Source: an uncultured Actinomycetes bacterium (GTDB lineage Bacteria; Actinomycetota; Actinomycetes; Nanopelagicales; Nanopelagicaceae). Taken from it: a DNA stretch of 40,149 nt. Of the stretch, positions 3,304-20,108 are shown piece after piece (position 1 is the stretch's first letter; each line of letters opens with the position of its first letter). The stretch spans positions 1-40,149 of the forward strand of contig CAILJM010000005.1 of the NCBI GenBank assembly GCA_903834515.1, in the 5' to 3' direction. Below the pieces are notes generated by a model. It searched no databases and was not told the DNA's origin. It saw only the letters and a list, made by a program, of their open reading frames with translations. Both the position numbers and the translations under genes were made by a program.

Positions 3304-3652
3304 ACTGAAGAGTCGCCCGGATCACCGCGTTACGTAAGTACCGAGGAAAGTCCGGACTCCACAGAGCAAGGTGATGGCTAACGGCCACTCGGAGAGATCC
3401 GCAGGAAAGTGCCACAGAAAATAACCGCCTCATTTCGGTGAGGTCAGGGTGAAACGGCGGTGTAAGAGACCACCGCATCTGCAGCGATGTAGATGGCAAG
3501 GTAAACCCCACTTGGAGCAAGACCAAAACGATGAAGAGCTGCTCGCTTAATTCATCAGGTAGGTTGCTTGAATCTGTTAGTAATGGCAGATCTAGATGGA
3601 TGGTGATCCGTTCGCAAGAACGACAGAATCCGGCTTATAGGGCGACTCTTCT
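3304..3652 (+). ncRNA. rnpB: RNase P RNA (bacterial type A), rnpB
   Basis: The catalytic RNA of RNase P matures tRNA 5' ends. Conserved signatures are present: GAGGAAAGTCCGGACTCCAC near 3342-3361 in the 5' part, and ACAGAATCCGGCTTAT (3624-3639) at the 3' end. Terminal helix P1 is explicit: AAGAGTCGCCC at 3308-3318 pairs with GGGCGACTCTT at 3640-3650. The length of about 350 nt is normal for the family. Ends are estimated from P1 and the promoter (start 3304-3307, end 3650-3653). The last ~25 bases recur downstream as direct repeats, which makes this gene the apparent anchor of the accessory block to its right. Confidence 0.95.
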
Positions 3653-3653
3653 T
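3626..3653 (+). repeat. rnpB-tail repeat, copy 1 (the functional rnpB 3' end)
   Basis: This 28-base stretch of rnpB holds the conserved GAATCCGGCTTAT and the 3' strand of P1. All of it recurs exactly at 4088-4115 and parts recur at 4251, 5326, 17898 and 18511. It is the probable insertion target, because it is the only copy attached to a complete gene. Confidence 0.9.
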
Positions 3654-3664
3654 TAAATTTGTAT

Positions 3665-3679
3665 TGCTACTATTCTTCG
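3665..3679 (+). promoter_or_regulatory. Leaderless promoter of the ASCH gene (extended -10)
   Basis: TG, one base, then TACTAT (3668-3673), followed by exactly six bases to the ATG at 3680. This matches the leaderless start pattern seen repeatedly in the window. It lies directly after the rnpB-tail repeat, so the gene carries its own promoter. Confidence 0.55.
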
Positions 3680-4102
3680 ATGAGCTTTCCGGTTGTTAAT
3701 GGCCTACGTGGAATCGAGTTCGGCACCAAAGGTGAATTTCGAGATGAGTTGATTGCACTGATTTTGCAAGGAAAGAAAAAAGCCACAGCAGGAACATTGG
3801 AGTGGGACTATCGGACTAACGGCGAACCCATCGAATTTGTTGGCGAAAAGCTCGCAGTACTCAACAACGATGGAGAACAAGTAGCAACTATTCAAGTAAC
3901 CCGAGTTGACGTTGTTCGCTTCGCTAATGTGCCTGATGAATTCGCTCTGGCTGAAGGCGAAGGAGATCTTTCCGGTGATGAATTCCGAAAGGGTCACATG
4001 CGCTATTGGACCAAACTGGGCCTGACAATCAATGAAGATACAGAGATTGTGCTTCTCTATTTCGACCTTATTTCTCCAATGAACAATGAATCCGGCTTAT
4101 AG
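3680..4102 (+). CDS. ASCH domain protein
   Basis: The 140-aa protein is essentially one ASCH domain (PUA-like fold, predicted RNA or nucleotide binding). It has the typical GKKKATAGTLEWDY segment, then a beta-rich core with VGEKLAVLNNDGEQVATIQVTRV and GHMRYW near the end. Related E. coli YqfB is an amidohydrolase acting on N4-acetylcytidine; whether this protein does so is unknown. The start is the ATG at 3680, which has a leaderless promoter; a TTG at 3659 in frame is less likely. The end is unusual: the last three codons and the stop (Ser-Gly-Leu-TAG) lie inside the second copy of the rnpB-tail repeat. The gene therefore fills the segment between two repeats almost completely. Confidence 0.85.
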   Translation: MSFPVVNGLRGIEFGTKGEFRDELIALILQGKKKATAGTLEWDYRTNGEPIEFVGEKLAVLNNDGEQVATIQVTRVDVVRFANVPDEFALAEGEGDLSGDEFRKGHMRYWTKLGLTINEDTEIVLLYFDLISPMNNESGL

Positions 4103-4115
4103 GGCGACTCTTCTT
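4088..4115 (+). repeat. rnpB-tail repeat, copy 2 (exact, 28 bp)
   Basis: All 28 bases are identical to 3626-3653. It supplies the last codons and the stop of the ASCH gene. The sequence after it continues into a GC-rich hairpin terminator. Confidence 0.92.
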
Positions 4116-4127
4116 AACAACATGTAG

Positions 4128-4160
4128 GCCCCGCATAGAAATGTGCGGGGCTTGCTCCTT
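4128..4160 (+). terminator. Hairpin terminator, possibly the original rnpB terminator
   Basis: GCCCCGCA (4128-4135) pairs with TGCGGGGC (4144-4151) across an 8-base loop, followed by a pyrimidine-rich TTGCTCCTTT. It would terminate transcripts entering from rnpB or the ASCH gene. It directly follows an exact copy of the rnpB tail, so it may be the ancestral rnpB terminator displaced by insertion of the ASCH segment. The remaining sequence to 4250 is AT-rich and I see no gene in it. Confidence 0.65.
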
Positions 4161-4250
4161 TATGCGCTGAAACTTTTTATAAGTATTACCAAAACCTAGC
4201 AAACTTTAATTTACATTTAAGGGTAAATCTTGGGGCAATTAGGGCAAGAA

Positions 4251-4264
4251 ATAGGGCGACTCTT
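4251..4264 (+). repeat. rnpB-tail repeat, copy 3 (right half only)
   Basis: ATAGGGCGACTCTT matches the right half of the rnpB tail exactly; the left half (CCGGCTT) is absent. It sits 26 bases before the ATG of the phosphotransferase gene, the position expected for a segment boundary. At 14 bases a chance match is possible, but its placement supports a degraded or hybrid site. Confidence 0.6.
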
Positions 4265-4278
4265 TTTGTGCCGAGATG

Positions 4279-4290
4279 TATTCTTCCTAA
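4279..4290 (+). promoter_or_regulatory. Leaderless promoter of the phosphotransferase gene
   Basis: TATTCT (4279-4284), preceded by TG, stands six bases from the ATG at 4291. No Shine-Dalgarno sequence precedes the start, in line with a leaderless transcript. Confidence 0.55.
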
Positions 4291-5277
4291 ATGGAATATC
4301 GGGATCTTGATCAAGATAGTCAGATCGCAGAGGTTCAAAAACTTGTACCAAGTCTCTTGGCAAAGTATGGAATCACAGCCAAGTCAGTTGAGAATGTAAA
4401 CCATAGTTACAACTCAACATTCAAAATTGAGAGTGCCAGTGGGGATTACGCCTTGAGGGTCAATCTTGGAGTCTCTCGGCAAGTAAACCAAGTATTGGCA
4501 GAGATGCAGTGGTTGGAGGTGCTAGCGGAAGAAGGCTCATTGCTTACCCCTGTTCCAGTTCGGACCCTAGATAACGAACTTTGCGTAAGTACCCGTTTTG
4601 ATGCTTTAGATCTAGACACAACGGCTGTCTTGGCCAAATGGATTCCAGGCGAAGAAGTGGGTGATGAACCGAGTGCTGATCAGCTCTATGAAGTTGGACG
4701 CAATATTGCCAAGCTTCAACTGATCTCAAAAGAGTTTACCTTTGAAGGTGATGCTTATCGCCCGACAATCAATCGGACCCTCTTGGATGCAGAGGACAAT
4801 CTCAGAAGCGGGCAACCCGAATTAATAGATGACAAGCTCTATGGCCAGATCCTTGAAGGACTCTCTCTGTGTGACTCGGTGTACTCCAGAATCTCAGCAC
4901 GAGAGGATGTACTCCTTATCCATGCAGACTTACACACCTTTAATGTCATCCAATCTGACAAAAGGCTCGGGGTAATTGACTTCGATGACTGCGGTCTAGG
5001 GTTGCCGGTACAAGATTTGGTCATTAATAATTATTACCTGCGCGAAGATCGGCAGCGCGAGGAGTATGTCAAAGCTGGATATTCATCGCTACTAGAGCTA
5101 CCAAAAGTTTCTACGGAGGATTATGAGGTCCTTCTCATGGGAAGACTCCTGCTGCTGTTGGGGACTGTTCTTGAAATGACGGCCGCAGATGACGTTGCAG
5201 CGATACCCGGATTTCTCATCAAGGTAAGGAATCGGCTCAACCACTTCTTCGATACTGGGGAATTTTCGCTGATCTAA
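4291..5277 (+). CDS. Aminoglycoside phosphotransferase (APH)-family small-molecule kinase
   Basis: The 328-aa protein has the protein-kinase-like fold of the APH/choline kinase/homoserine kinase II group. The catalytic loop is HADLHTFNV (H-x-D-x4-N Brenner-type motif) and the metal-binding loop is VIDFDDCG, both close to the usual spacing. The N-terminal lobe includes an ATP-binding beta sheet around NSTFKIESASGDYALRVNLG. The substrate cannot be read from sequence: aminoglycosides, amino acids, sugars and choline are all used in this family, and most members are not resistance genes. It is alone in its segment, between copies 3 and 4 of the rnpB-tail repeat, with a leaderless promoter and no upstream ribosome-binding site. 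Confidence 0.85.
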   Translation: MEYRDLDQDSQIAEVQKLVPSLLAKYGITAKSVENVNHSYNSTFKIESASGDYALRVNLGVSRQVNQVLAEMQWLEVLAEEGSLLTPVPVRTLDNELCVSTRFDALDLDTTAVLAKWIPGEEVGDEPSADQLYEVGRNIAKLQLISKEFTFEGDAYRPTINRTLLDAEDNLRSGQPELIDDKLYGQILEGLSLCDSVYSRISAREDVLLIHADLHTFNVIQSDKRLGVIDFDDCGLGLPVQDLVINNYYLREDRQREEYVKAGYSSLLELPKVSTEDYEVLLMGRLLLLLGTVLEMTAADDVAAIPGFLIKVRNRLNHFFDTGEFSLI

Positions 5278-5325
5278 TTGGTGGAGACTGTCTCCTTGGA
5301 AATAGATTTTCTAAACTCTTTGTTT

Positions 5326-5349
5326 TCCGGCTTATAGGGCGACTCTTCT
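5326..5349 (+). repeat. rnpB-tail repeat, copy 4
   Basis: This 24-base copy runs from TCCGG through GACTCTTCT, with no mismatch to rnpB. It separates the phosphotransferase segment from the catabolic segment. Apart from the repeat, the 190 bases between 5277 and 5468 hold no gene. Confidence 0.9.
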
Positions 5350-5467
5350 GTATTCATGATCCTTACCAGCTGAGCTGTTCGGAACATAATCGAATGAGAA
5401 CGCGTAACAGAATCCTTTTCAATTACAGACGATCACCGTCTCTGCACAAGAGTTCGTTGAGCTTTTT

Positions 5468-6256
5468 CTAATTGGGCCAGACGCTTCCGAGCTCTTGATT
5501 GATTTCGGCGGCCGTCTTCTTCAAAATCGGCCAAATTCTCTCCTCTAACTCCTTCATGCTCAATCGTGAAGAAGGCACGGAAATATTGATCGCCGCATAC
5601 GTATCGTTGACGTGGCTGCCGATCGAAACTCCTATGGAGCGAAGGCCAATCTCTAGCTCCTCATTAATGATGCAGAAGCCTGATTTGCGTACCTTGGCCA
5701 ACTCCTTCTTCATCTCCGACATCGTTGCAATTCCATTCTTGGTGGGTGGGTCGAGCTTCATGCCAGAAAGGTACTTATCGAGTTCTTCTTCTGGTAACTG
5801 AGCGAGCATCACTCGGCCCATCGAGGTATAGAGCGCTGGAAGCTTGGTTCCAACCGATAATCCAATTGTCATCAATCGATTGGTCGAAGCGCGCGCAACA
5901 TATACAACATCAGGAAATACGAGAACTGAAGCAGATGCGGATTCGTGGAGTTCGGTCGCTATGGCGTTGAGATGTTTTTGAACGATGTCATTGAAGGAGA
6001 GCGTGGATAGGTAGGAGTACCCAATCTCCATCAATTTGGGCCGAAGGTAAAAATACTTTCCATCAAATCCAACATATTCCAGATCGACCAAAGTAAGAAG
6101 TAGGCGCCGAGCAGTTGCTCGCGATAGGTCGGCAAGGGCGGCAACCTCTGTCAGGGTCATTCGAGATTTTCCGCGGTTGAAGGCCATCAGCACGTTTAGT
6201 CCACGGGTAAGCGATTGCACGGAATCGGATGCATGGGGAGTTCGACCTTCCTTCAT
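5468..6256 (-). CDS. IclR-family transcriptional regulator
   Basis: The 262-aa protein has the two IclR domains. The N-terminal winged helix-turn-helix runs over roughly residues 10-75 (SVQSLTRGLNVLMAF, then TLTEVAALADLSRATARRLL), and the C-terminal effector-binding GAF-like domain over roughly residues 85-260. It resembles regulators of protocatechuate and other aromatic pathways (PcaR/PcaU type). It is transcribed away from the catabolic operon, with a 128-bp shared region containing a TTGACA -35 box and two inverted repeats, so it very probably controls that operon in response to a pathway compound. The start at 6256 has a good GGGAG ribosome-binding site. IclR proteins may repress or activate; the operator position just past the operon's start site suggests repression. 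Confidence 0.9.
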   Translation of the reverse strand: MKEGRTPHASDSVQSLTRGLNVLMAFNRGKSRMTLTEVAALADLSRATARRLLLTLVDLEYVGFDGKYFYLRPKLMEIGYSYLSTLSFNDIVQKHLNAIATELHESASASVLVFPDVVYVARASTNRLMTIGLSVGTKLPALYTSMGRVMLAQLPEEELDKYLSGMKLDPPTKNGIATMSEMKKELAKVRKSGFCIINEELEIGLRSIGVSIGSHVNDTYAAINISVPSSRLSMKELEERIWPILKKTAAEINQELGSVWPN

Positions 6257-6296
6257 CTCGCACTCCCATCCGACTTGATAATCAAATTGTTATAAA

Positions 6297-6311
6297 GATG
6301 TCGTTGACATC
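6297..6311 (+). promoter_or_regulatory. Inverted repeat over the -35 box (candidate IclR operator 1)
   Basis: GATGTC, three bases, GACATC: perfect six-base arms overlapping the TTGACA -35 element (6304-6309) of the catabolic operon. With a 17-base spacer the matching -10 is AAGAAT (6327-6332). Confidence 0.45.
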
Positions 6312-6341
6312 TGGCTCCACGCTACCAAGAATAGTGCAAAT

Positions 6342-6359
6342 AGCGAACAATTGTTCACT
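6342..6359 (+). promoter_or_regulatory. 18-bp palindrome (candidate IclR operator 2)
   Basis: AGCGAACAATTGTTCACT has an inner perfect 12-bp palindrome GAACAATTGTTC and one mismatch in the outer arms. A further half-site, GAACAAG, follows at 6364. It lies a few bases after the predicted operon start site, where a bound repressor would block transcription. Confidence 0.55.
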
Positions 6360-6383
6360 ATACGAACAAGAGATTTTGGGGGC

Positions 6384-7454
6384 ATGATGGAGTTCATCCA
6401 CGAGACTCATACCCCGCGCGTAATTTTTGGCGAGCATTCACTTTCTTCGGTCAAAGCGGAATTGGAATTACTCGGCGCAACTTCAATTACCTTTATTTCG
6501 GATGAGAATACACAAGCAGTTGCTCAGAAGATTTCAGCAGAACTCGGCGAGAAAGTTAATCAAGAGATCACACAAGTTGCCATGCATGTGCCAGATGAAT
6601 TTTCTGAACCCATCATTTCAACTGCAGCCGAACTTGGAATAAATGCGATTCTGGCTATCGGGGGAGGCTCTTCGACGGGACTAGGCAAGATCATGGCCCT
6701 CGAACTTAATCTTCCTCTCGTGGTCATTCCCACGACGTACGCCGGCAGTGAGATGACTCCCATTTGGGGGAGAACACGCAATAAAGAGAAGATCACCGGA
6801 GTTGATCGCAAAGTACTTCCTAAGACCGTTCTCTATGCTCCTCAACTTACGCATACGCTTCCACTTTCCATCACGGTAAATAGCGGAATGAATGCGATTG
6901 CTCATGCGGTTGAAGCGCTTTACGCACCTCAACTCTCCCCACTTGTTGAACTTGCCGCCCTCAAGGGAATTGAAGTAATGGCTCAAGGGCTACGAAAGAT
7001 CGCAAATAGCCTCGATGATCATTCGGCACGTGAAGATCTCTTTTATGGCGCGATGCTCTGTGGTTTTGCTCTTGGAAATAGCAAAATGGGTATCCATCAC
7101 AAGATTTGTCACACTCTGGGGGGCATGTACAACTTGCCACACGCTCAAATGCATTCCGCGGTTCTTCCCTACGCCGTTAAATACAACGAAGGCGTTGCTC
7201 GTATCCAGATGTCCAAAGTCGCCGAGATCCTAGGGGCAGAAAATGCAAGCCAAGGTTTGTGGGACCTTTCTACCGCAATCGGAGCTGAGACTTCACTCGG
7301 CAAACTGAATTTCCCCGCAACCGAATCGGCGAAGGTCGCTGATTTTATGTCCTCTTACCCTTTGGTAAACCCACGCGCTTTCGATTACGAAATTGTCGTG
7401 AAGTTACTTCAGGCGGCAAGTTCGGGATCTCGCCCAGATGACGAGTCCTGGTAA
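6384..7454 (+). CDS. Maleylacetate reductase (iron-type alcohol dehydrogenase family)
   Basis: This enzyme would reduce maleylacetate to 3-oxoadipate with NAD(P)H, the step after hydroxyquinol ring cleavage. The ~356-aa protein shows the family's nucleotide-binding region AILAIGGGSSTGLGK and the maleylacetate-reductase signature YAGSEMTPIWG, followed by LPKTVLYAP and SGMNAIAHAVEALYA. The second domain contains HHKICHTLGG and LPHAQMHS. In the wider Fe-ADH family these His positions bind metal, but maleylacetate reductases are usually metal-independent. ATG codons at 6384 and 6387 follow a GGGGG tract; 6384 is used, though 6387 has the better spacing. It is the first gene of a single long operon to 17369. 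Confidence 0.9.
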   Translation: MMEFIHETHTPRVIFGEHSLSSVKAELELLGATSITFISDENTQAVAQKISAELGEKVNQEITQVAMHVPDEFSEPIISTAAELGINAILAIGGGSSTGLGKIMALELNLPLVVIPTTYAGSEMTPIWGRTRNKEKITGVDRKVLPKTVLYAPQLTHTLPLSITVNSGMNAIAHAVEALYAPQLSPLVELAALKGIEVMAQGLRKIANSLDDHSAREDLFYGAMLCGFALGNSKMGIHHKICHTLGGMYNLPHAQMHSAVLPYAVKYNEGVARIQMSKVAEILGAENASQGLWDLSTAIGAETSLGKLNFPATESAKVADFMSSYPLVNPRAFDYEIVVKLLQAASSGSRPDDESW

Positions 7455-7484
7455 GTCAACCAAGCAGATGAGGAGAGTTACGCA

Positions 7485-8762
7485 ATGGTTGAGTTGAAAA
7501 GAAAGAAAGTAATCGCAGGAGTTCTTGCATCAGCACTTGTTGTTGCGCTTGCGACAACGTCCGGTGCAACAGCTGCGAGTGTGAAGACACTCAAAGTTGG
7601 ATTTGTCTCGCCTCAAACTGGACCACTTGCTGGTTTCGGTGAAGCAGATAAATACGAAGTAACTCAAATGACTGCTTACTTCAAGAAGAATCCAATCACC
7701 ATCGGATCTTCAAAGTACGCAGTTCAGGTAATCCTTAAGGATGCTCCTTCATCTGCTGCAGCCGCCACGGCTGCGTCAGATCTCATTAATAATGACAACG
7801 TCGACTTAATCCTTGCTTCCAGCACGCCGGATATTGTCAATCCAGTATCTGATCAGTGTGAAGCAAATGCTGTGCCTTGCATTACAACAGTTGCGCCATG
7901 GCAGGCTTATTACTTCGGTCGCCAGAAGGATCCGGCACACCCAGTTGCATTCAAATGGACCTATCACTTCTTCTGGGGTCTAGAGGATGTCATGTCTACA
8001 TATGAAGATATGTGGAGCAAGGTTGTAACCAATAAGGCTGCAGCAGCGCTCTGGCCAAACGATCCAGATGGTCAAGCTTGGAGTGGTGCTAACGGCTTCC
8101 CAGCAACAACCAAGTCCGTCGGCGTCTCGGTAACAGATCCAGGTCTCTATCCAAACGGAACTCAGGACTTCACTTCCCAGATCTCAGCATTTAAGTCAGC
8201 AGGTGCTCAGATTCTTCTCGGTGTCCCAATTCCTCCAGACTTCACCACCTTCTGGAACCAAGCCGTACAGCAGGGTTACAAGCCAAAGATTGCAACTATT
8301 GGTAAGGCACTTCTCTTCCCATCCGCAATCGAAGCACTCGGCAAGAATGGTCAGAACTTGGGAACCGAAGTTTGGTGGCACCCAACCTCTCCATTCAAGA
8401 GCTCACTTACAGGTCAGACTGCAAAGCAATTGGCAGCTGCCTACGAGAAGACAACAAAGAAGCAATGGACACAGCCACTTGGTTTCTCCCACGCACTCTT
8501 TGAAGTCATGAGCGCAGCTCTCAAGTCTGCTGGTTCAACCGATAAAGCTGCAGTTGCGAAGGCAATCTCGAAGCTCAAGGTTAAGACAATCGTAGGTACT
8601 GTTGATTGGACTTCCGGACCAGTTGGTAACGTTGCTAAGACTCCTCTTGCAGGCGGTCAGTGGCGTGCTGGCGTGAACGGTCACAAGTATGACTTGGTCA
8701 TTGTCTCTAACAAGACAGCACCAATGGTTCCACTTGGCGGGCAAGTTCAAGCACTTAAGTAA
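7485..8762 (+). CDS. ABC transporter substrate-binding protein, Liv/aromatic type
   Basis: The 425-aa extracellular solute-binding protein belongs to the periplasmic-binding type 1 (LivJ/LivK-like) family. It begins with a signal peptide (KRKK, then a hydrophobic stretch to about residue 31, ending TSGATAAS). There is no lipobox Cys, so anchoring by lipidation is not expected. The mature part starts KTLKVGFVSPQTGPLAGFG, typical of the family. The ribosome-binding site AGGAGAG lies 8 bases before the ATG. Four transporter genes for the ATPases and permeases follow. Because the operon is otherwise devoted to hydroxyquinol catabolism, the ligand is probably an aromatic compound or aromatic acid rather than an amino acid; this is inferred from context. 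Confidence 0.92.
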   Translation: MVELKRKKVIAGVLASALVVALATTSGATAASVKTLKVGFVSPQTGPLAGFGEADKYEVTQMTAYFKKNPITIGSSKYAVQVILKDAPSSAAAATAASDLINNDNVDLILASSTPDIVNPVSDQCEANAVPCITTVAPWQAYYFGRQKDPAHPVAFKWTYHFFWGLEDVMSTYEDMWSKVVTNKAAAALWPNDPDGQAWSGANGFPATTKSVGVSVTDPGLYPNGTQDFTSQISAFKSAGAQILLGVPIPPDFTTFWNQAVQQGYKPKIATIGKALLFPSAIEALGKNGQNLGTEVWWHPTSPFKSSLTGQTAKQLAAAYEKTTKKQWTQPLGFSHALFEVMSAALKSAGSTDKAAVAKAISKLKVKTIVGTVDWTSGPVGNVAKTPLAGGQWRAGVNGHKYDLVIVSNKTAPMVPLGGQVQALK

Positions 8763-8782
8763 AAGTAGGTAGAAGATAGATC

Positions 8783-8816
8783 GATTGGGCAACCACAACG
8801 TTGTGGTTGCCCAATC
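8783..8816 (+). promoter_or_regulatory. Perfect 34-bp palindrome after the binding-protein gene
   Basis: 17-base arms (8783-8799 and 8800-8816) are perfectly complementary with no spacer, in the 74-base gap between the binding protein and the first ATPase. There is no T-run, so it is not a standard terminator. It probably acts as an mRNA-stabilising or attenuating hairpin that leaves binding-protein message in excess, as is common in importer operons. Confidence 0.7.
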
Positions 8817-8836
8817 CACTCAATGAAAGGATCACA

Positions 8837-9601
8837 ATGGTTAACGAAACCCAGTCTCATGTAAGTGCGCTAACTGTTTCTGATCTCAATAAAAAATTTG
8901 GACGAGTAATCGTCGCTGAAGGAATCTCGTTCGATGTGAAAGCGGGCGAGGCGTTTGGAATAGTGGGACCTAATGGCGCTGGAAAATCAACGCTTCTTAA
9001 CCTCATTAACGGGACAGAGCCAAGTGATAGCGGGGAGATTCTCTTTCACGGCGAGCCACTCAATTCGCTCGATCCAGCAGAGCGCACCCATAAAGGAATT
9101 GCCCGTACCTTTCAGATCCCTAAGCCATTTAGTGAAATGACTGTCTACGAGAACGTACTTGTCGGAAGTACCTTTCTCAAGAGCCATCACTCACGCCACG
9201 AGCGTAGTGAACTTGCCATAGATGCCATCACTCGGGCCGGGCTCACCCCATTTTTTAACACCCCAGCCGGAAAGCTCCGGTTACTCGATCGAAAGCGGCT
9301 TGAACTTGCTCGTTCTCTGGCTTGCCAACCCAAATTGCTACTTCTTGATGAGATCGCCGGTGGACTCACCGATGCTGAGTTGCCAGTGCTACTTGAGATA
9401 ATCCGCGAATTGAATGCAAGTGGCGTAGCCATCGTCTGGATAGAACATATCGTTCATGCTCTCGTTTCTGTAGTAGATCGATTGATGTGTATTGCCGGGG
9501 GAAAAGTCATCGCTATTGGTGACCCGCACACGGTTCTTGAAGATCCAAAAGTTATAGAAATTTATCTTGGAAGCGACTTCCAAGTTGGTGGAGCAGTATG
9601 A
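8837..9601 (+). CDS. livG: Liv-type ABC transporter ATP-binding protein (LivG-like)
   Basis: The 254-aa ATPase has Walker A GPNGAGKST, a Q-loop region in ARTFQIPKPF, Walker B LLLLDEIAGG with the catalytic Glu, and the switch His in WIEHIVHAL. The usual LSGGQ or LxYGxQ signature is replaced by LRLLDRKRLELARSLA, a variant that may mark a subfamily. The start is the ATG at 8837, which has an AAAGG ribosome-binding site at 7-base spacing; an in-frame codon at 8801 falls inside the palindrome. Its end overlaps livF by four bases (ATGA). It powers uptake together with LivF and the LivH/LivM permeases. Confidence 0.9.
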   Translation: MVNETQSHVSALTVSDLNKKFGRVIVAEGISFDVKAGEAFGIVGPNGAGKSTLLNLINGTEPSDSGEILFHGEPLNSLDPAERTHKGIARTFQIPKPFSEMTVYENVLVGSTFLKSHHSRHERSELAIDAITRAGLTPFFNTPAGKLRLLDRKRLELARSLACQPKLLLLDEIAGGLTDAELPVLLEIIRELNASGVAIVWIEHIVHALVSVVDRLMCIAGGKVIAIGDPHTVLEDPKVIEIYLGSDFQVGGAV

Positions 9602-10305
9602 CACTCCTTGAAATCGTCAACGTTGAAGCCAGGTATGGTGACCTCAATGCACTTTTTGGGGTATCTCTGCAAATAAGCGCTGGAGAAGTTCGCTCGGTTA
9701 TTGGTGCAAATGGTGCGGGAAAATCAACGCTACTTAAAGTCATCGCCGGAACGATGCCGGCTACCCAAGGAAGTATTAAATTTAATGGGCACGACATCAA
9801 GGGGCTATCGGCCGACAAGAGAGTGCGAGCTGGAATCTCACTTGTGCCAGAAGGTCGGCGGATCTTCCCCTCGCTCACCGTTGAAGAGAATCTTAAGGTT
9901 GGCGCATATTCCAAACGCAAAGGGCATTGGGATCTCAACACCATCAAGGCGCTTTACCCACTTCTTGCAGATCGCTGGGATCGTATTGGCTTTCATTGTT
10001 CTGGGGGTGAATTACAAATGCTCTCGATTGGCCGAGCGCTTATGGCAAACCCAGAAATTCTTCTGATTGACGAAGCGTCTCTGGGGCTTGCTCCCGTAGT
10101 CGTTGCGCAAGTGTATGAGTCACTCTCTCAAATAACTTCACAGGGAACTGCTGTTCTCATCGTGGAACAAGATATGCGCCAGGCGTTAAAAGCCTCTACA
10201 TACTCCTCTGTTCTTCTTGAAGGACGAGTAGTCCTCGAAGGAAAGTCAGCAGAACTCAATGAGAATGCAATCCACAAGGCTTACTTTGGAATGGGTGATC
10301 GTTAA
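9598..10305 (+). CDS. livF: Liv-type ABC transporter ATP-binding protein (LivF-like)
   Basis: The 235-aa ATPase has Walker A GANGAGKST, signature CSGGELQMLSIGRALM (Cys in place of the usual Leu), Walker B EILLIDEASLGLAP and switch-region VEQDMRQAL. The family pattern VPEGRRIFPSLTVEENL is typical of LivF. It overlaps livG upstream by four bases and livH downstream by one base, indicating tight translational coupling. It forms the second nucleotide-binding subunit of the importer. Confidence 0.93.
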   Translation: MTLLEIVNVEARYGDLNALFGVSLQISAGEVRSVIGANGAGKSTLLKVIAGTMPATQGSIKFNGHDIKGLSADKRVRAGISLVPEGRRIFPSLTVEENLKVGAYSKRKGHWDLNTIKALYPLLADRWDRIGFHCSGGELQMLSIGRALMANPEILLIDEASLGLAPVVVAQVYESLSQITSQGTAVLIVEQDMRQALKASTYSSVLLEGRVVLEGKSAELNENAIHKAYFGMGDR

Positions 10306-11168: not shown

Positions 11169-11170
11169 TG

Positions 11171-12175: not shown

Positions 12176-13008
12176 TGGCCACATCAGAAAGCGAATTGAC
12201 TGCAGAAGTTATTGAGAGTTTCAAGAATACAGCCGATCCACGCCTTAAAGAGATTATGCAATCTCTCGTAAAGCATCTTCATGCTTTCGCGCGCGAGATT
12301 CGAATCACGGATGAAGAGTGGCTCTTCGCTATCGATTTCCTCACCAAAACGGGTGCGATGTGCTCAGATGTCCGGCAGGAGTTCATCCTTCTCTCTGACA
12401 CTCTTGGCCTCTCAAGTTTGGTTGATTTGATTAATCACTCTAAAGGCGATGATCGAGCGACCGAGCCGACAATTCTTGGACCTTTCCATGTTGCCAACTC
12501 GAAGCTCCTCAATTACGGCGATTCCATCGTCGCTCGAGCGTTATCAGAGGGCGAACCGGCAATTGTGCGGGGCCGTGTAGTGGATGTTGACGGTGCACCG
12601 ATCGCAAATGCGATGATTGATGTTTGGCAGACAGATGCCAATGGACTCTATGACATTCAAGAATCCAACGAGGTGAGCGGAAACCTTCGTGGCCTCTTTA
12701 AGACTGATAGCGATGGTCGATATGAATTCAAGACAATTCGTCCAGTTCCATATCCCATCCCTGCAGATGGTCCCGTCGGAAAGATGCTTCGTTCAGTCAA
12801 TCGACATGAATGGCGAGCGGCTCACATCCACGCAATAGTTGAGGCGCCAGGATATCGCCAGGTAACAACTCATATCTTTGACGAGGAGAGCAAGTATCTC
12901 GATAGCGATACTGTCTTTGGAGTTAAGGGCTCGCTCATAAAAAAGTTTGTGAAGCAACCAAGCGGAGATCTTCTTTTGGAATATGACTTTGTATTGGTTA
13001 AGGGATAA
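12175..13008 (+). CDS. Hydroxyquinol 1,2-dioxygenase (intradiol)
   Basis: The 277-aa non-haem Fe(III) intradiol dioxygenase has the N-terminal helical domain of the catechol/hydroxyquinol group (residues ~10-90) and the catalytic beta-sandwich after it. Iron ligands are visible: Tyr in GLYDIQ, Tyr in PVPYPIP, and the two His of AAHIHAIV. It would cleave hydroxyquinol (1,2,4-trihydroxybenzene) to maleylacetate. That substrate, rather than catechol, is favoured because maleylacetate reductase is in the operon and muconate cycloisomerase, muconolactone isomerase and enol-lactone hydrolase are not. Chlorocatechol cleavage is the main alternative. The GTG start overlaps the livM stop by one base and has an AAGGAAGG ribosome-binding site. 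Confidence 0.88.
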   Translation: MATSESELTAEVIESFKNTADPRLKEIMQSLVKHLHAFAREIRITDEEWLFAIDFLTKTGAMCSDVRQEFILLSDTLGLSSLVDLINHSKGDDRATEPTILGPFHVANSKLLNYGDSIVARALSEGEPAIVRGRVVDVDGAPIANAMIDVWQTDANGLYDIQESNEVSGNLRGLFKTDSDGRYEFKTIRPVPYPIPADGPVGKMLRSVNRHEWRAAHIHAIVEAPGYRQVTTHIFDEESKYLDSDTVFGVKGSLIKKFVKQPSGDLLLEYDFVLVKG

Positions 13009-13011
13009 CTA

Positions 13012-13776
13012 ATGATTAATAAAGTTGTATCAAGTGCTGACGAGGCAGTCGCCGACCTCTTTGATGGCGCCTCTTTGGCCGTCGGCGGATTTGGTCTCGT
13101 CGGAGTTCCCAATGTCTTGATACAGGCGATTTTCCGAAAAGGAAATCGCGAACTGCGTGTTGTCTCTAATAACTGCGGTGTAGATGGTGGAGGGCTCGGC
13201 ATACTGCTCGAGGCGGGAAGAATTGCCCACGTTACCGCTTCATATATTGGAACTAATAAAGAGTTTGAGCGGCAATATCTCGAAGGTCTCATTGAACTCG
13301 AACTTACTCCGCAAGGAACACTGGCCGAGAAATTACGATCTGGTGGCGCAGGCATTCCAGCTTTCTTTACCCCCGCGGGAGTTGGAACATGGGTTGAGAG
13401 CGGCGAGCTTCCCACTCGATTTGATAGTAGTGGTGGAGTTATCAAGTATGGAGCTCCAAGAGAGCGGCGAGAGTTCAACGGCAAGCAATTTATTCTCGAA
13501 GAGACCATTACCACCGACTTTTCGTTAGTGCGCGCATATAAAGCGGATACCCAAGGCAATTGCATCTTTCGTAAGTCTGCTCGTAACTTCAATCCTAACG
13601 CCGGCATGGCTGGGCGAATCACTATCGTTGAAGCGGAAGAGATTGTTGAGGCCGGGACACTGGACCCAGAGAACATTCATTTGCCCGGGATCTATGTAAA
13701 ACGAGTTGTTGCATTGACTGCAGAAGAATCTGCAATAAAGGGAATTGAACAACTCACAGTAAGGAAGCGTGGTTGA
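13012..13776 (+). CDS. pcaI: 3-oxoadipate CoA-transferase, subunit A
   Basis: The 254-aa alpha subunit of a class I CoA-transferase transfers CoA from succinyl-CoA to 3-oxoadipate. It carries the family's glycine-rich N-terminal segment [36 protein letters not shown], and the [17 protein letters not shown] signature. The protein is close to succinyl-CoA:3-oxoacid transferases (ScoA), so acetoacetate is a possible alternative substrate, but the operon context points to 3-oxoadipate. Three bases separate it from the dioxygenase, and the B subunit follows directly. Confidence 0.88.
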
Positions 13777-13777
13777 A

Positions 13778-14416
13778 ATGGCGCTTACTCGCGAAGAACT
13801 AGCTCAACGTGCCGCCAAGGAATTGCGTAATGGCGAGTACGTCAATCTCGGAATCGGGCTGCCGACTCTTATCCCCAATTATCTTGATCCAAGCGTCAAC
13901 GTGATACTCCACTCCGAGAATGGGCTACTAGGGGTAGGTCCGTATCCCTTTGAAGATGAAGTTGATCCGGACCTCATTAATGCCGGCAAGGAAGTGGTTA
14001 CCGCCCTACCTGGTGCCTCATTCTTTGATTCTGCACTCTCCTTCTCCATGATTCGAGGTGGAAAAGTCGATGTCGCCATTCTGGGTGCAATGGAAGTATC
14101 CTCGAGTGGCGATCTTGCTAATTGGATCATTCCTGGGAAGTTAGTTAAGGGCATGGGCGGTGCAATGGACTTGGTTCATGGCGCTGGTCGGGTAATCGTT
14201 TTAATGGAACATGTCTCGAAGAACGGTAAGCCTAAGTTGCTTGCCAAATGTTCCCTACCATTGACGGGTATCCAAGTCGTCCATAGAGTCATTACCGATC
14301 TGTGCGTCCTGGACACTTCCTCTGAAGGTTTCTACTTACGTGAACTTGCGCCTGGAGTCACGTTAGAAGATGTTCTCAACAATACTGATGCAACCGTAAT
14401 AGATAAGAGGAGCTGA
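13778..14416 (+). CDS. pcaJ: 3-oxoadipate CoA-transferase, subunit B
   Basis: The 212-aa beta subunit contains the catalytic Glu in [10 protein letters not shown], where the enzyme-CoA thioester forms. It also shows [15 protein letters not shown] near the N-terminus and [19 protein letters not shown] in the core, all typical of ScoB/PcaJ. The start used is the ATG at 13778, ten bases after an AAGGAAG ribosome-binding site; a GTG at 13769 would overlap the A subunit but lies almost on that site. A and B together form the active heteromer. Confidence 0.9.
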
Positions 14417-14418
14417 CT

Positions 14419-16179
14419 ATGTCAACAGATACACAATTAATCGAGACCGATGTGCTTATCGTCGGATCGGGTCCGGCGGGATTGACGACAGCTGTTGGGT
14501 TGGCAAGTCAGAAGATAGACCACATTGTTATTACCAAGTATCAGTGGACTGCAAATACACCGCGCGCACACATCACCAATCAAGGCGCGATGGAGATCTT
14601 CCGCGATTACGGAATTGAAGAAGATGTTAAAGAGAAGGCAACAGAACATAGTTTGATGGGCGATACCGTCTTCTGTACCAGCTTGGTAGGCGAGGAGATC
14701 GGACGTATCCGCACGTGGGGATGCCACCCACGCCGAGAAGCAGATTATGTCTTGGCAAGCCCCACCGAGAATTGCGACATTCCTCAAGATTTGCTTGAAC
14801 CAATACTCCTGACTCGTGCAGCTGAGCAAGGTTCCAAGGTGCGCTTCAATACTGAGTTCATCAAATTCGAAGAAGATGCTGATGGAGTAACAACAACAGT
14901 TCTTGATCGCATCTCCGGGACGCAATACCAGATTCGAAGCAAGTATCTTGTTGGTGCTGATGGCGGTCGTTCAAAAGTTGTTGAACAACTTGGACTTCCT
15001 ATGGAAGGTCAGATGGATGTCGCAGGTTCAATGAATATTGTCTTTAAGGCAGATCTCACTAAATTCGTCGCTCACCGTCCGAGCGTTCTCTACTGGGTTC
15101 TCCAACCCGGTTCAACCATTGGCGGAATCGGACTTGGCTTAGTTCGCATGGTTCGTCCATGGAATGAATGGCTCATTGTTTGGGGGTATGACATTTCACA
15201 GCCAGCACCTGTGGTTACTGATGAAATGGCGATCTCGGTTGTCCGCAATCTCGTTGGAGATCAAGAGCTAGAGGTGGAGATAACCTCCACATCGGTCTGG
15301 GGTAATAACAAGATGTATGCCAAGCAGTACAACAAAGGTCGCGTATTTGCCATGGGTGATGCCACCCACCGCCACCCACCTTCAAATGGCCTCGGCTCCA
15401 ATACCTCGATCCAGGATTCTTATAACCTCGCCTGGAAACTTGGCTACGTTCTTAAAGGAAAGGCCGGCACTGAATTGCTCGACTCCTACAGCGCAGAGCG
15501 CGCACCAGTAGGAAAGCAGATCGTTCTTCGCGCCAACAAGTCGATTGAAGAGTTCGGCGCAATTCTTGAAGCCCTTGATGTACTTGGTACAAATGATCCT
15601 GTTGTAATGCGTCGCAACATTGAAGCTCGTCGCGATAACACTCCAGAAGGAGCCAAGCGTCGTGAGGACCTTCGAAAGGCGCTTGAACTTAAGGATTATG
15701 AGTTCAATGCGCATGGTGTCGAACTTGGTCAGCGGTATGCCTCCTCAGCCGTTGTAGCCGATGGGACGCCAGAGCCTGAGTACGCGCAAGATTCTGAACT
15801 CTTTTATCATCCAACAACTTGGCCAGGCGCTCGCGTACCTCACGTTTGGGTTGGCAAGGATGGATTCAAGGTGAGCACCAAAGATTTGGGTGGGAAGAAT
15901 CGCTTCGCTCTCATCACTGGAATCGCCGGTAGCCCTTGGGATGAGGCAGCCAAAGCTGTTTCTAAGGAGTTAGGAATCGACTTGAGCTCGTACATCATCG
16001 GTCCGGGACAGGAATATACCGATCTCTATGATGACTGGGCTCGTGTCCGCGAAGTACGGGAAGATGGTTGCATTCTCGTGCGCCCCGATAACTTTGTTGG
16101 ATGGCGAAGTGACTCTATGGTCGCGGATCCGAAGGCCGCGTTATTGAAGGCTCTTAAGTCAATTCTTAGTTTGGCATAA
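14419..16179 (+). CDS. FAD-dependent aromatic hydroxylase (TfdB/PheA family)
   Basis: The 586-aa single-component flavoprotein monooxygenase has all three group A motifs: the dinucleotide-binding VLIVGSGPAGLTTAVGLASQ at the N-terminus, the DG motif GADGGRSKV, and the GD motif GDATHRHPPSNGLGSNTSIQ. The last is very close to 2,4-dichlorophenol and phenol hydroxylases. A thioredoxin-like C-terminal domain follows. It would add a hydroxyl group to a phenol or resorcinol-type ring using NAD(P)H and O2. Given its operon, the product is probably hydroxyquinol, so resorcinol or a related dihydroxybenzene is the favoured substrate; this is inference. The start ATG has a GGAG site 7 bases upstream. Confidence 0.88.
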   Translation: MSTDTQLIETDVLIVGSGPAGLTTAVGLASQKIDHIVITKYQWTANTPRAHITNQGAMEIFRDYGIEEDVKEKATEHSLMGDTVFCTSLVGEEIGRIRTWGCHPRREADYVLASPTENCDIPQDLLEPILLTRAAEQGSKVRFNTEFIKFEEDADGVTTTVLDRISGTQYQIRSKYLVGADGGRSKVVEQLGLPMEGQMDVAGSMNIVFKADLTKFVAHRPSVLYWVLQPGSTIGGIGLGLVRMVRPWNEWLIVWGYDISQPAPVVTDEMAISVVRNLVGDQELEVEITSTSVWGNNKMYAKQYNKGRVFAMGDATHRHPPSNGLGSNTSIQDSYNLAWKLGYVLKGKAGTELLDSYSAERAPVGKQIVLRANKSIEEFGAILEALDVLGTNDPVVMRRNIEARRDNTPEGAKRREDLRKALELKDYEFNAHGVELGQRYASSAVVADGTPEPEYAQDSELFYHPTTWPGARVPHVWVGKDGFKVSTKDLGGKNRFALITGIAGSPWDEAAKAVSKELGIDLSSYIIGPGQEYTDLYDDWARVREVREDGCILVRPDNFVGWRSDSMVADPKAALLKALKSILSLA

Positions 16180-16184
16180 ATCGC

Positions 16185-17369
16185 ATGAGTGCATACATCG
16201 TTGATGCTGTACGTACCCATGTCGGTAGATATGGTGGTGCACTTGCCAACACTCGCGCTGATGATCTAGCCGCTGCCACCATTGAAGCTCTTCTCCAGCG
16301 AACTATGGTGAGTGGAGAAATCCTTGATGAAGTCATCATGGGAGCAGCTAATCAATCGGGCGATGACAATCGAAACCTTGCGCGTATGGCGCTGCTTCTA
16401 GCGGGCGTTCCTGAGTCGGTTCCGGGATACACCGTAAATCGACTTTGCGCCTCTGGCTTACAAGCGATCGCTTCTGCCGCAGAATCAATCAATTCTGGTC
16501 GCACAGAAGTAGTGATCGCAGGTGGTGCTGAATCTATGACCCGGGCTCCATGGGTGAGCGAAAAGCCAAGTAAAGCGTGGTCTAAGCCTGGCCCGGTATT
16601 TGATACCGCCCTTGGTTGGAGATTCATCAATTCGAAGATGAAAGAGCACGACAGTGGTCGATCGGTCTTATCGCTCGGCGAAGCCACCGAAAGACTTGCT
16701 AGAGAACACGGCATCTCAAGATCGGATGCAGATCTCTGGGCGGCAGCTTCGCATCAGAAGGCTCATCAAGCATGGCAGGATGGCTTCTTTACTAGCGCGC
16801 TCATTTCTGTACCGGGAAGCGAGAAACTCACCGCTGATGAGACGATTCGTGAGAGTACAACCTTTGATGTATTAAGTAATTTAAAGCCATCATTCACAAG
16901 CGATGGTGTAATTACTGCTGGAAATGCATCACCGCTTTCTGATGGCGCAAGCGCTGTAATGGTGGTCTCAAAAGAGGCGTTGGAGCGTCATCACTTAACA
17001 CCCCGCGCCGAGATTTTGGGATTCGATGCCGCAGGCGTGCTTCCCTATCAATTTGGTTTTGGTCCAGTACCGGCAACAGAAAAATTGCTTACCCGACTTG
17101 GTATGTCTGTTCAGAATCTTGATGCCATTGAGATCAACGAAGCTTTCTCTGCGCAAACTCTCTTATGCATCCGAGCTCTCGGTCTTGAAGAGGAGCGAGT
17201 TAATAACCGTGGGGGAGCAATCGCACTCGGTCACCCATTGGGCTCATCCGGCAGCCGTTTAATCGGAACTCTTCTTTCTCGTCTGGAGCAAGATGATCAA
17301 GAGATCGGTCTAGCCACGCTCTGTATTGGAGTCGGTCAAGGCGCATCCATGATCATTAGAAGGATCTAA
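16185..17369 (+). CDS. pcaF: 3-oxoadipyl-CoA / acetyl-CoA C-acyltransferase (thiolase)
   Basis: The 394-aa thiolase has the acyl-accepting Cys in VNRLCASGLQAI, GGAESMTRAPW, the NEAF motif (EINEAFSAQTLL), the catalytic His in GGAIALGHPLGSSGSR, and the second Cys in TLCIGVGQGASM. In this pathway it would cleave 3-oxoadipyl-CoA with CoA to succinyl-CoA plus acetyl-CoA, the last step. General acetoacetyl-CoA thiolase activity is possible because the family is hard to subdivide. It starts five bases after the hydroxylase gene with no clear ribosome-binding site, and ends the operon. Confidence 0.9.
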   Translation: MSAYIVDAVRTHVGRYGGALANTRADDLAAATIEALLQRTMVSGEILDEVIMGAANQSGDDNRNLARMALLLAGVPESVPGYTVNRLCASGLQAIASAAESINSGRTEVVIAGGAESMTRAPWVSEKPSKAWSKPGPVFDTALGWRFINSKMKEHDSGRSVLSLGEATERLAREHGISRSDADLWAAASHQKAHQAWQDGFFTSALISVPGSEKLTADETIRESTTFDVLSNLKPSFTSDGVITAGNASPLSDGASAVMVVSKEALERHHLTPRAEILGFDAAGVLPYQFGFGPVPATEKLLTRLGMSVQNLDAIEINEAFSAQTLLCIRALGLEEERVNNRGGAIALGHPLGSSGSRLIGTLLSRLEQDDQEIGLATLCIGVGQGASMIIRRI

Positions 17370-17406
17370 TAAACTTTTTACATAGAACCAGCATTTGTAA
17401 CTGGAA

Positions 17407-17436
17407 AACCAATGACATGGCTTAGCCATATTGGTT
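17407..17436 (+). other. Imperfect hairpin after the catabolic operon
   Basis: AACCAA and ATGGC at 17407-17421 pair with GCCAT and TTGGTT at 17425-17436 with a small internal bulge. No T-run follows, so it may be a weak terminator or a regulatory dyad for the VOC gene. The rest of 17370-17524 holds a possible -10 TAAAAT at 17461. Confidence 0.4.
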
Positions 17437-17524
17437 GGGATCGATTCTTTGGGAATGGGCTAAAATACGATTCATATTTCAAGCACACTCACCTTGATGA
17501 TCTGAATAAAAGAAAGGTACCTTC

Positions 17525-17887
17525 GTGACCGTAAAATTCTTGGGACTTAGATCTTTGATTTATCCAGCGCCGAGAATTCAAGAATCTAAAGAATGGTGGA
17601 AGAAGACCCTAGGTAAGGATCCGTACTTCGATGATGGCGGATACGTCGGTTTCGACCTCGGCGGATACGAGCTTGGCCTAAATAGTTTTTCAGAGTCGCT
17701 CAAAGGTCCACTCACATATATTGGTGTAGAGGACGTCCAAGCTGCAGTTGATTCACTCGTCGCGGATGGAGCAAAAGTATTAATGGGTCCGATGGATGTA
17801 GGTGGCGGAATCATCTTGGCGGATATTGAGAGTCCTACTCGAGAAGTTTTCGGCGTTATTTTTAATCCTCAATTTAAGCTACTTTAG
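17525..17887 (+). CDS. VOC (glyoxalase/extradiol-like) family protein
   Basis: The 120-aa protein has one vicinal-oxygen-chelate domain of two beta-alpha-beta-beta-beta modules: RSLIYPAPRIQESKEWWKK in the first, and YIGVEDVQAAVDSLVADGA followed by ILADIESPTREVFGVI in the second. Members include glyoxalases, bleomycin-binding proteins and small dioxygenase-like enzymes; the function cannot be told from the sequence. The GTG start has a GAAAGG site at nine bases. It lies between the catabolic operon and the fifth rnpB-tail repeat, and may be a separate passenger, since it has its own upstream region and no link to aromatic breakdown. Confidence 0.8.
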   Translation: MTVKFLGLRSLIYPAPRIQESKEWWKKTLGKDPYFDDGGYVGFDLGGYELGLNSFSESLKGPLTYIGVEDVQAAVDSLVADGAKVLMGPMDVGGGIILADIESPTREVFGVIFNPQFKLL

Positions 17888-17897
17888 AAATTTAATA

Positions 17898-17920
17898 CGG
17901 CTTATAGAGCGACTCTTCTT
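17898..17920 (+). repeat. rnpB-tail repeat, copy 5 (one variant base)
   Basis: CGGCTTATAG, then AGCGACTCTTCTT: a 23-base match to rnpB with one G-to-A change. The same variant base recurs in copy 6, so the two copies flanking the DUF4287-DUF2200 segment share it. Confidence 0.88.
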
Positions 17921-17941
17921 CAATTTCCTCGTAAATTGATT

Positions 17942-17953
17942 TATGATTTATTC
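17942..17953 (+). promoter_or_regulatory. Leaderless promoter of the DUF4287 gene
   Basis: TATGAT (17942-17947) followed by exactly six bases to the ATG at 17954, 21 bases past the end of repeat copy 5. It resembles the promoters of the other segment genes. Confidence 0.55.
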
Positions 17954-18166
17954 ATGGCTGAAAAGAAAGTAACTGGACCGGCTTCGTATTTCCCCTCTAT
18001 TGAGAAGAAGTACGGCAAGCCAATCGAGCATTGGATGAAGGAACTCAAGAAGGTCTCCAAGCTTGCCCATATGGAGCAAGTAGCTCACCTCAAGGAAAAG
18101 TTTGAGATGGGCCACGGCCACGCAAATGCGATAGTCCATGTATTTCGCCAAAAGAATGGGCTATAA
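17954..18166 (+). CDS. DUF4287 domain protein
   Basis: The 70-aa protein matches the small DUF4287 family: FPSIEKKYGKPIEHWMKEL at the N-terminus and HMEQVAHLKEKFEMGHGHANAIV after it. The predicted structure is all helical; no biochemical role is known to me. The ATG at 17954 with its leaderless promoter is preferred to a TTG at 17936 in frame. It precedes the DUF2200 gene by two bases, and the pair forms the complete content of one repeat-bounded segment. Confidence 0.85.
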   Translation: MAEKKVTGPASYFPSIEKKYGKPIEHWMKELKKVSKLAHMEQVAHLKEKFEMGHGHANAIVHVFRQKNGL

Positions 18167-18168
18167 AA

Positions 18169-18522
18169 ATGGATGTAGATAAGATTTCGAAAATGCCCGT
18201 TAATGGCGTTTATCAGGCCTACTTGAAGAAGGTGGAGCGCAAAGGCGGGAGTGAATCAGATCTCGTTAAGGTGATCGGCTGGCTCACAGGATTTGATTCG
18301 AAGGTATTGAAGTCGCATCTCAAGAATGAGACTAATTTTGCGGATTTCTTCAAGAAGGCAAAGTTAAATCCGAACGCCAAACTTATTACAGGGTCGATTT
18401 GTGGGGTCAGGATTGAAGAGATTGAGGATCCCCTCATGAAGAAGATCAGATATATGGATAAGTTAGTGGATGAACTAGCTAAAGGTCGCCCAATGGAGAA
18501 AATTCTTCGTTCCGGCTTATAG
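18169..18522 (+). CDS. DUF2200 domain protein
   Basis: The 117-aa protein matches DUF2200 along its full length: VYQAYLKKVERKGG, VIGWLTGFDSKVLKSHL, then the diagnostic ICGVRIEEIEDPLMKKIRYM and DKLVDELAKGRPMEKIL. Family function is unknown. The C-terminus is notable: after the normal family end (MEKILR) it has Ser-Gly-Leu and a TAG stop that all belong to the sixth rnpB-tail repeat, just as in the ASCH gene. It is co-transcribed with DUF4287. Confidence 0.88.
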   Translation: MDVDKISKMPVNGVYQAYLKKVERKGGSESDLVKVIGWLTGFDSKVLKSHLKNETNFADFFKKAKLNPNAKLITGSICGVRIEEIEDPLMKKIRYMDKLVDELAKGRPMEKILRSGL

Positions 18523-18526
18523 AGCG
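18511..18526 (+). repeat. rnpB-tail repeat, copy 6 (left half only)
   Basis: TCCGGCTTATAGAGCG, including the variant A of copy 5, after which similarity stops. It codes for the last residues of the DUF2200 protein and appears to be the right end of the accessory block. Confidence 0.75.
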
Positions 18527-18538
18527 TCACCTCATGTA

Positions 18539-20026: not shown

Positions 20027-20049
20027 GATTGAAGCCTACACCTAACCCA

Positions 20050-20098
20050 TTGATGTTTATCGATATGACCTGATACTCTTCCATCGATGAAATTCGAT
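20050..20098. promoter_or_regulatory. ars intergenic region with repeated TCGAT motifs (candidate ArsR sites)
   Basis: ATTGAT, four bases, ATCGAT at 20050-20065 forms an imperfect dyad. CCATCGATG and TTCGATAG follow nearer the permease ribosome-binding site (AGGAG, 20098-20102). Placement between arsR and its presumed targets suggests operator function. Confidence 0.35.
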
Positions 20099-20108
20099 AG
20101 GAGAAATC

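Follow-up and report, generated by a model that had tools for sequence, protein, structure and literature searches.

Gene cassettes stacked behind the RNase P RNA gene of Nanopelagicaceae: a probable array of site-specific integrations at the rnpB 3' end

In Dehalococcoides the single-copy ssrA gene, which encodes tmRNA, is followed by multiple tandem islands, and between them lie 20-bp repeats of the ssrA 3' end; 15 of these islands lack an integration module and were suggested to be cis-mobilizable and to have moved by accretion, and the island integrase is the serine recombinase DsiB (PMC3146451). Here we describe an arrangement of this kind behind rnpB, the RNase P RNA gene, in a 40,149-nucleotide stretch of DNA from an uncultured member of the Nanopelagicaceae, a family whose members abound in fresh water (contig CAILJM010000005.1, positions 1 to 40,149; the whole stretch is called the window). 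As in Dehalococcoides, units are stacked at a structural RNA gene and parted by copies of its 3' end. The present system differs from the ssrA islands in its target (rnpB), in having a tyrosine integrase, in segment size (141 of 189 segments are 1.5 kb or shorter) and in the use of one site across a whole family.

The additive flexible genomic islands (fGIs) of streamlined aquatic bacteria are also alike, with recurring repeats of RNA gene ends and exchange of cassettes (PMC10872708, PMC7771536). Methylopumilus fGI-2, at tRNA-Lys, has 20-bp repeats and islands of 330 bp to 42 kb with 1 to 63 coding sequences (PMC10872708), and Ca. Actinomarinales have tRNA cassettes (PMC7771536). Compared with these tRNA islands, the target here is rnpB, and a cognate integrase family, an excisionase and arm-like repeats are identified. 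Cis-mobilizable elements (CIMEs) are units flanked by attachment (att) sites that lack an integrase, are stacked at one site and are described as having lost their integration and transfer genes (PMC5704250). The integrase-less, att-flanked stacking is shared, but 95 of the 189 units at rnpB, or half, are one compact gene each. Features of additive islands and CIMEs found at rnpB are copies of the 3' end in the same orientation, a regenerated target, variation bounded by the repeats and, in some arrays, an integrase beside an att site. Tycheposons, as described, use a tRNA target, span 4-200 kb and carry a tyrosine recombinase (PMC10872708). On that description the present arrays are something else, as their target is rnpB and their segments measure 93 bp to 12.6 kb with a median of 709 bp.

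Integron cassettes hold one gene, mostly in one orientation, with the recombination site directly behind it; that site, attC, has long imperfect inverted repeats. The rnpB arrays stack their cassettes much as integrons do, and share with them the one-gene cassettes, the prevailing gene orientation, the site right behind the gene, and cargo such as GNAT proteins and an SMR-type transporter. They differ in having no IntI (three integrases scored 58.4, 47.4 and 44.6 bits with TIGR02249, against a cut-off of 265), mostly no integrase beside the platform, and a site that, unlike attC, is conserved over only 24-27 nt. Among the 12-20 best-ranked papers of each search of the open-licence literature we found no report of rnpB as an integration target, and we do not claim that print holds none: in the rnpB passages of papers that pair the gene with island or site terms it appears as a promoter, as a phylogenetic marker or in a reference, and the aquatic papers checked by term, PMC10872708 and PMC7771536 among them, do not mention it. 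A preliminary description of the window, made from the letters alone, had proposed a cassette array anchored on rnpB and knew of no described system like it. The array is supported; stacking of segments without an integrase behind a repeated RNA gene end, however, had already been described for Dehalococcoides ssrA and the tRNA additive islands. What is new here is the rnpB target, the one-gene scale and the spread across a family.

Copies of the rnpB 3' end in the window and in the family

The block behind rnpB very probably consists of cassettes that were integrated in tandem, by site-specific recombination, at an attachment site (attB) formed by the last ~25 bases of the gene. The window rnpB, a class A RNase P RNA gene on the forward strand at 3309-3653, matches Rfam RF00010 over its full length (301.5 bits) and has both P1 strands intact (GAAGAGTCGCCC at 3307-3318 and GGGCGACTCTTC at 3640-3651), so that the target is regenerated. 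Its terminal bases, TCCGGCTTATAGGGCGACTCTTCTT at 3629-3653, constitute the native core, the proposed attB or attL core. The preliminary description held that the last 28 bases of rnpB recur exactly at 4088, which is so (4088-4115), and that shorter copies in the same orientation lie at 4251, 5326, 17898 and 18511. Those at 4251-4264 (14 nt) and 5326-5349 (24 nt) are exact, and 17898-17917 matches a 20-mer of the core with one mismatch, within a fuller copy at 17896-17920 that also has one mismatch, but the copy at 18511 is degenerate and retains chiefly the left half, TCCGGCTTATAGAGCG. Every core copy of the window is on the forward strand. The 20-mer at up to three mismatches matched the window four times and 100 shuffles not at all. 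When a 16-mer at up to two mismatches was sought in the window's own genome (39 contigs, 1.48 Mb), five matches fell at the rnpB locus and one, with two mismatches, on another contig (C23); the latter is chance-like because the reversed-pattern control itself gave four.

At no more than one mismatch the core is present in 177 of 296 Nanopelagicaceae (acI) genomes and in 90 of the 108 best assemblies, with no match to the reversed pattern. At least two copies were found in 107 of the 296 genomes and at least three in 64, the maximum being eight. The closed acI genomes IMCC25003, IMCC26103, IMCC19121 and IMCC26077 are among the matches listed. Within the genus of the window 25 of 32 genomes carry the core at up to two mismatches, a level at which single two-mismatch matches mean little, given that the reversed control matches 10 of the 32.

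A core scattered genome-wide had been named in advance as an outcome that would count against an array anchored on rnpB. This outcome was not seen: among 17 genomes whose contigs are chromosome-sized, which are those we noticed and not a systematic list, 48 of the 49 copies are found at rnpB itself or up to ~13 kb downstream of it on the same strand. The sole exception, G134:C1:347007 (L202:3005; G, C and L numbers denote genomes, contigs and loci), is away from rnpB and is followed by sequence 87-88% like cassettes of rnpB arrays (L203, L101); it is, to judge from this resemblance, an ectopic insertion.

Further copies deserve mention in their own right. G271, a 2.2-Mb genome, has a lone core with an arm-like left end (C2:558203, L282) ~13 kb from a broken recombinase fragment, and its array at 1,076,677-1,082,238 (L209) contains repeated 3' parts of rnpB of ~150 nt. 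Exact 20-mer cores also occur in metagenome-assembled genomes (MAGs) labelled Dehalococcoidia, Chloroflexi, Sedimentisphaerales and Ilumatobacteraceae (L188, L185, L184, L160, L082). In L188 and L160 the G+C content falls near the core. Mis-binned or chimeric contigs are the likely source of these cores, although real transfer may have contributed. MAG records titled Bifidobacterium breve (L099, L110, L149 and others) carry acI-type arrays, and their titles look wrong. Several MAG contigs (for example G010, G016, G012 and G004) end inside the array or directly after it, as expected if the array varies within a population.

Cassette boundaries and exchange between genomes

Boundaries were examined in 352 distinct copies (up to four mismatches over 24 bases) at 163 loci. 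These comprised 107 native-like copies, 239 non-native copies and six that were too near ends, a native copy being one with a BLAST match to rnpB within 300 bp upstream, which takes in a few second cores behind mini-cassettes as well as cores behind partial copies of rnpB (G271, G050). Native copies are conserved upstream too (ACAGGA, 82-99%). Non-native copies are conserved over just 24-27 nt and have a sharp left edge at TCCGG: position 0 is T in 94% of them and position -1 is conserved in only 31%. Where rnpB is present at the same locus, 101 copies share its strand and six are on the other; 100 are downstream of it and one is upstream. A few opposite-orientation copies were seen in the arrays L249 (G101), L250 (G102) and L150; hence inversions, or insertions in the other direction, occur.

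Spacing from core to core ranges from 93 bp to 12,570 bp. Between neighbouring same-strand cores we counted 189 distinct segments (median 709 bp), of which 141 are 1.5 kb or shorter, and 95 of these short segments have exactly one open reading frame (ORF) of at least 60 residues. The ORF is read away from rnpB in 72 of the 95 and toward it in 23, a strand bias that only hints at expression from a promoter of the platform. (If cores are collapsed across loci, the counts 189, 141, 95 and 72 become 186, 139, 93 and 70.) In the 72 same-strand cassettes the ORF starts a median of 35 bp past the previous core and ends a median of 10 bp before the next, the latter distance being 30 bp or less in 54; in 13 the stop codon lies within the core, giving a protein end of ..SGL* or the like. 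Cassettes up to 1.5 kb fall into clusters with 80 representatives, and cargo was scanned in 63 of these; the other 17, omitted by eye, are ORFs of 60-122 residues. The cargo includes GNAT acetyltransferases, EamA and SMR-type transporters, DoxX, DUF2200, DUF4260, TerC, isochorismatase, DNA alkylation repair and other proteins, these being among the 25 families listed of 76. Some cargo matches families of candidate defence or phage proteins, a RelE-like toxin family among them, and recombinase names are absent among the families listed in the three cargo scans.

Sequence on the two sides of the core is shuffled. In 468 pairs of copies the following sequence is common and the preceding sequence is not, and in 279 pairs of non-native copies the reverse holds (BLAST pieces of at least 40 bp within 300 bp; the pairs are not independent). 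Like cassettes at different loci form 267 pairs. In 61 of them both contigs carry rnpB, and for 27 of the 61 the cassette is more alike than rnpB by over 5 percentage points. The clearest example comes from chromosome-sized contigs. The first cassette of G099 (genus g9) and that of G123 (genus g11), 4,080 bp long, show two differences, while their rnpB genes are 83.7% identical over 330 bp. G098, of the same genus as G099, is identical to it over the core and the final 200 bases ahead of the core (99.1% over 330), and G099 has 4,104 bp extra exactly at the core; in G098 rnpB is followed directly by the second cassette of G099 (95.3% over 387) and then by the common downstream gene (95.7% over 529). 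In a second set the same downstream DNA follows an empty rnpB end in L087, a cassette of 654 bp in G022 and an integrase element of 11.1 kb in G024, with downstream identities of 300/300 and 88/88 bases, the latter ended by a contig end. Comparison of relatives at rnpB, as the preliminary description had proposed, thus gave sites that are empty or less filled and segments that differ in content but are joined at the same core.

Core-adjacent integrases, proposed mechanism and alternatives

No integrase was found within the block in the window, as had been remarked at the outset: the two PF00589 matches of the window genome are both on other contigs. A recombinase next to a core copy, the further thing to be sought, is present in relatives. 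In a few arrays a local profile search of the loci placed tyrosine integrases next to cores. They form one family, have Phage_integrase and SAM-like domains and are 45-50% identical to the first member. The family, at 47% identity or more, occurs in six of the 296 genomes, at seven loci; other integrases are at 30% or less, except for a 61-residue piece at 56%. A core follows the integrase gene at all seven loci, at distances of 5, 6, 27, 39, 94, 172 and 314 bp. Under the same rule (the right 19 bases at up to four mismatches, on the gene's strand and no more than 400 bp past it) none of the loci of 24 other integrases had a core, these being 24 of the 29 others; one of the 24 offers just 36 bases past the gene. 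An integrase of another type (26% identity), in a MAG labelled Pseudobdellovibrionaceae (L178), ends 131 bp ahead of an exact core. The 11.1-kb element of G024 carries type III restriction-modification genes, an excisionase (TIGR01764, over the cut-off) and, as its last gene, the integrase. In some of these elements the right core diverges in its left half, which suggests that exchange takes place within CTTATAGGGCGACTC; the partial core of the window at 4251 agrees with that point.

Behind many rnpB copies there is a hairpin, after which direct repeats such as GTGGGCA-AAAAC-GTGGGCA begin at ~+91. A test for at least three spaced G-rich 5-mers at +78 to +165 picked out 35 of the 97 native copies and 19 of the 231 non-native ones, as against 1 of 317 and 1 of 318 control stretches. 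These repeats look like arm-type integrase sites, on the model of known tyrosine integrases. A fixed order, with cassettes always between rnpB and the arms, found no support: arms stand both first and inner.

On the reading that best explains such arrays, a tyrosine integrase would recombine two cores, one in rnpB and one on a circular element. The end that arrives with the element would rebuild rnpB, often supplying a hairpin terminator and arm-type sites (~+91 after the core), and the displaced old end of rnpB would become the next core downstream; repeated integration would then give stacked cassettes. Autonomous elements, with cargo, an excisionase and an integrase that ends just ahead of the right core, are rare. 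Most cassettes seen lack an integrase, often consist of one gene, and are presumably moved in trans or in cis by an integrase that is only occasionally present.

Several results weigh against this mechanism. The cognate integrase was found neither in the window genome nor in 290 of the 296 family genomes, and 12 of the 18 genomes examined for recombinases have just two tyrosine recombinases (PF00589), one XerC-like and one XerD-like. Exact searches of viral contigs with an 18-mer and a 16-mer of the core found no match. The right core is divergent in some integrase elements (two of seven have 4-5 mismatches over 24 bases, and one has four over the right 19), and the arm motif is absent at most non-native cores. 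Most of the genomes are MAGs broken at the array, and mis-binning may affect single examples. As the Xer-like pair stands alone in 12 of 18 genomes, the arrays would have to be stocked either by an integrase that is usually absent, brought by transient elements and acting in trans or in cis, or by the Xer enzymes, and this is the weakest step of the argument.

Other sources of the activity were sought. Serine recombinases (PF00239) occur in one of the 18 genomes, and no third recombinase that is conserved throughout and could act in trans turned up among the 18 with PF00589 and PF00239. As to a phage vehicle, the 24 matches of viral contigs to a 14-mer of the core have unrelated flanks, and the integrase relatives on viral contigs (the best 80 of 95) are at 33% identity or less, except for a 62-residue piece at 60% with no core behind it. 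In phage and plasmid records all integrase matches fall below 60%, with 25-29% in the best eight of each. Phage rnpB was likewise set aside as a source: 14 records match rnpB, none past base 294 of 352, and hence none contains the rnpB 3' end.

A more integron-like arrangement on an essential ribozyme gene is possible, and we put it forward tentatively. The rnpB end with a resident, arm-bearing left end would be a fixed platform, into which a visiting integrase acting in trans would insert circles with a bare 24-bp core, sometimes including the stop codon of the gene, and first cassettes without a terminator would be read from the rnpB promoter. We think it unlikely that the cassettes move instead through homologous exchange of whole array pieces among strains, with flanking genes and common cassettes serving as arms, or through slippage between the 24-bp repeats, with no site-specific enzyme acting today. 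The lack of the cognate integrase in 290 of 296 genomes fits that explanation, as does the fact that two neighbouring cassettes are common to G099 and G123 and could have been transferred as a single block. However, these two cassettes differ in identity (two differences in 4,080 bp versus 97.3%), which argues against one joint transfer, and the left break lies at the core inside an rnpB of 83.7% identity; non-native copies, moreover, begin at one base, and the integrase and the arm-like repeats stand at fixed places.

Recombination of the core by host XerC/XerD, in the manner of the pdif modules of plasmids, which these enzymes move, seems less likely still. The pair are the sole tyrosine recombinases found in 12 of 18 genomes, and all 12 have the core, ten of them in at least two copies, but a separate integrase family stands at the core in seven of seven loci and the arm-type repeats point to another kind of integrase. 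That the repeats are kept for an RNA function, such as processing or termination signals behind each gene, is very improbable: the reading frame does end within the core in 13 of the 72 same-strand one-ORF cassettes, so that there the core is part of the gene end, but a core by itself lacks a strand to pair with (the 5' strand of P1 lies ~320 bp off), its upstream flank is not conserved, and the shuffling of flanks is left unexplained.

Segments of the window array and their meaning for the family

All segments of the window array are given here on the forward strand. Cassette 1 (3654-4115) consists of an ASCH-domain gene (3680-4102; PF04266) and the core at 4091-4115, within which the stop codon of the gene falls (..SGL*); ASCH-like cassettes sit between cores in loci L101 and L129 at 65-66% identity. 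The next segment, 4116-4264, recognized by folding and repeats, is a mini-cassette without a gene. It has a hairpin at 4124-4155 that resembles the rnpB terminator (-26.6 kcal/mol), G-rich direct repeats at ~4219-4249 that by eye are like arm sites, although the automatic repeat test scored them only as doubtful arms, and the partial core at 4251-4264 that closes it. A 92% identical copy of 4113-4250 is flush with the core in L274/L127, from another genus. The third segment (4265-5349) holds an APH-family kinase gene (4291-5277; PF01636) and the exact core at 5326-5349.

The large segment that follows (5350-17378) contains aromatic-pathway genes, recognized from ORFs, Pfam matches and translations. 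Pfam matches include IclR (a regulator gene at 5468-6256, minus strand), Fe-ADH, Peripla_BP_6 (a substrate-binding protein), Dioxygenase_C (an intradiol dioxygenase) and FAD_binding_3 (an FAD hydroxylase); an ABC transporter, a CoA transferase and a thiolase were named from their translations. For the APH and aromatic segments no match is listed in other arrays of the family at the sensitivity of the comparison. At 17379-17528 lies a relic of a DUF4260-gene cassette, its start fused to its C-terminal end (30/46 and 9/14 identities to two parts of the L063 DUF4260 protein). No core remains between it and the following glyoxalase gene, and the relic, with its internal deletion, illustrates the decay of array boundaries. 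The glyoxalase-like gene (17525-17887; PF00903) and the core at 17896-17920 make up 17525-17920; the gene is a one-gene cassette in L054 (84% DNA identity) and L068 (80%), with the right edge flush with the core and 87% protein identity. The last segment (17921-18534) contains a small ORF (17954-18166), the putative DUF4287 gene of the preliminary description, and a DUF2200 gene (18169-18522; PF09966), and is closed by the degenerate core at 18511, in which the DUF2200 stop codon lies. DUF2200 cassettes are flush with the core in L245, L268 and L278.

The preliminary description had divided the block into self-contained gene sets. Pfam bears out the ASCH, APH-family, IclR, Fe-ADH, dioxygenase, glyoxalase and DUF2200 assignments, but the stretch at 5328-17898 is composite, because the DUF4260 relic precedes a glyoxalase gene that elsewhere is a cassette of its own. 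Since the ASCH, gene-less, glyoxalase and DUF2200 segments recur in other arrays, the window is one member of a shared pool. Farther downstream, at 19739-22352, adjacent ORFs encode an ArsR-like regulator, a permease, an aquaporin-like and an arsenate-reductase-like protein, as read from translations only.

In these arrays the Nanopelagicaceae have one well-defined place at which single genes are taken up and passed from genus to genus, and the gene of an essential ribozyme joins the RNA genes used as integration targets. The site predicts a place in reads at which to look for the gain and loss of genes in lake populations, and the core-adjacent family supplies an integrase for which rnpB is a target already in place. 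If the tentative platform arrangement is true, there would be a further natural way, besides integrons, to stack promoterless single genes.

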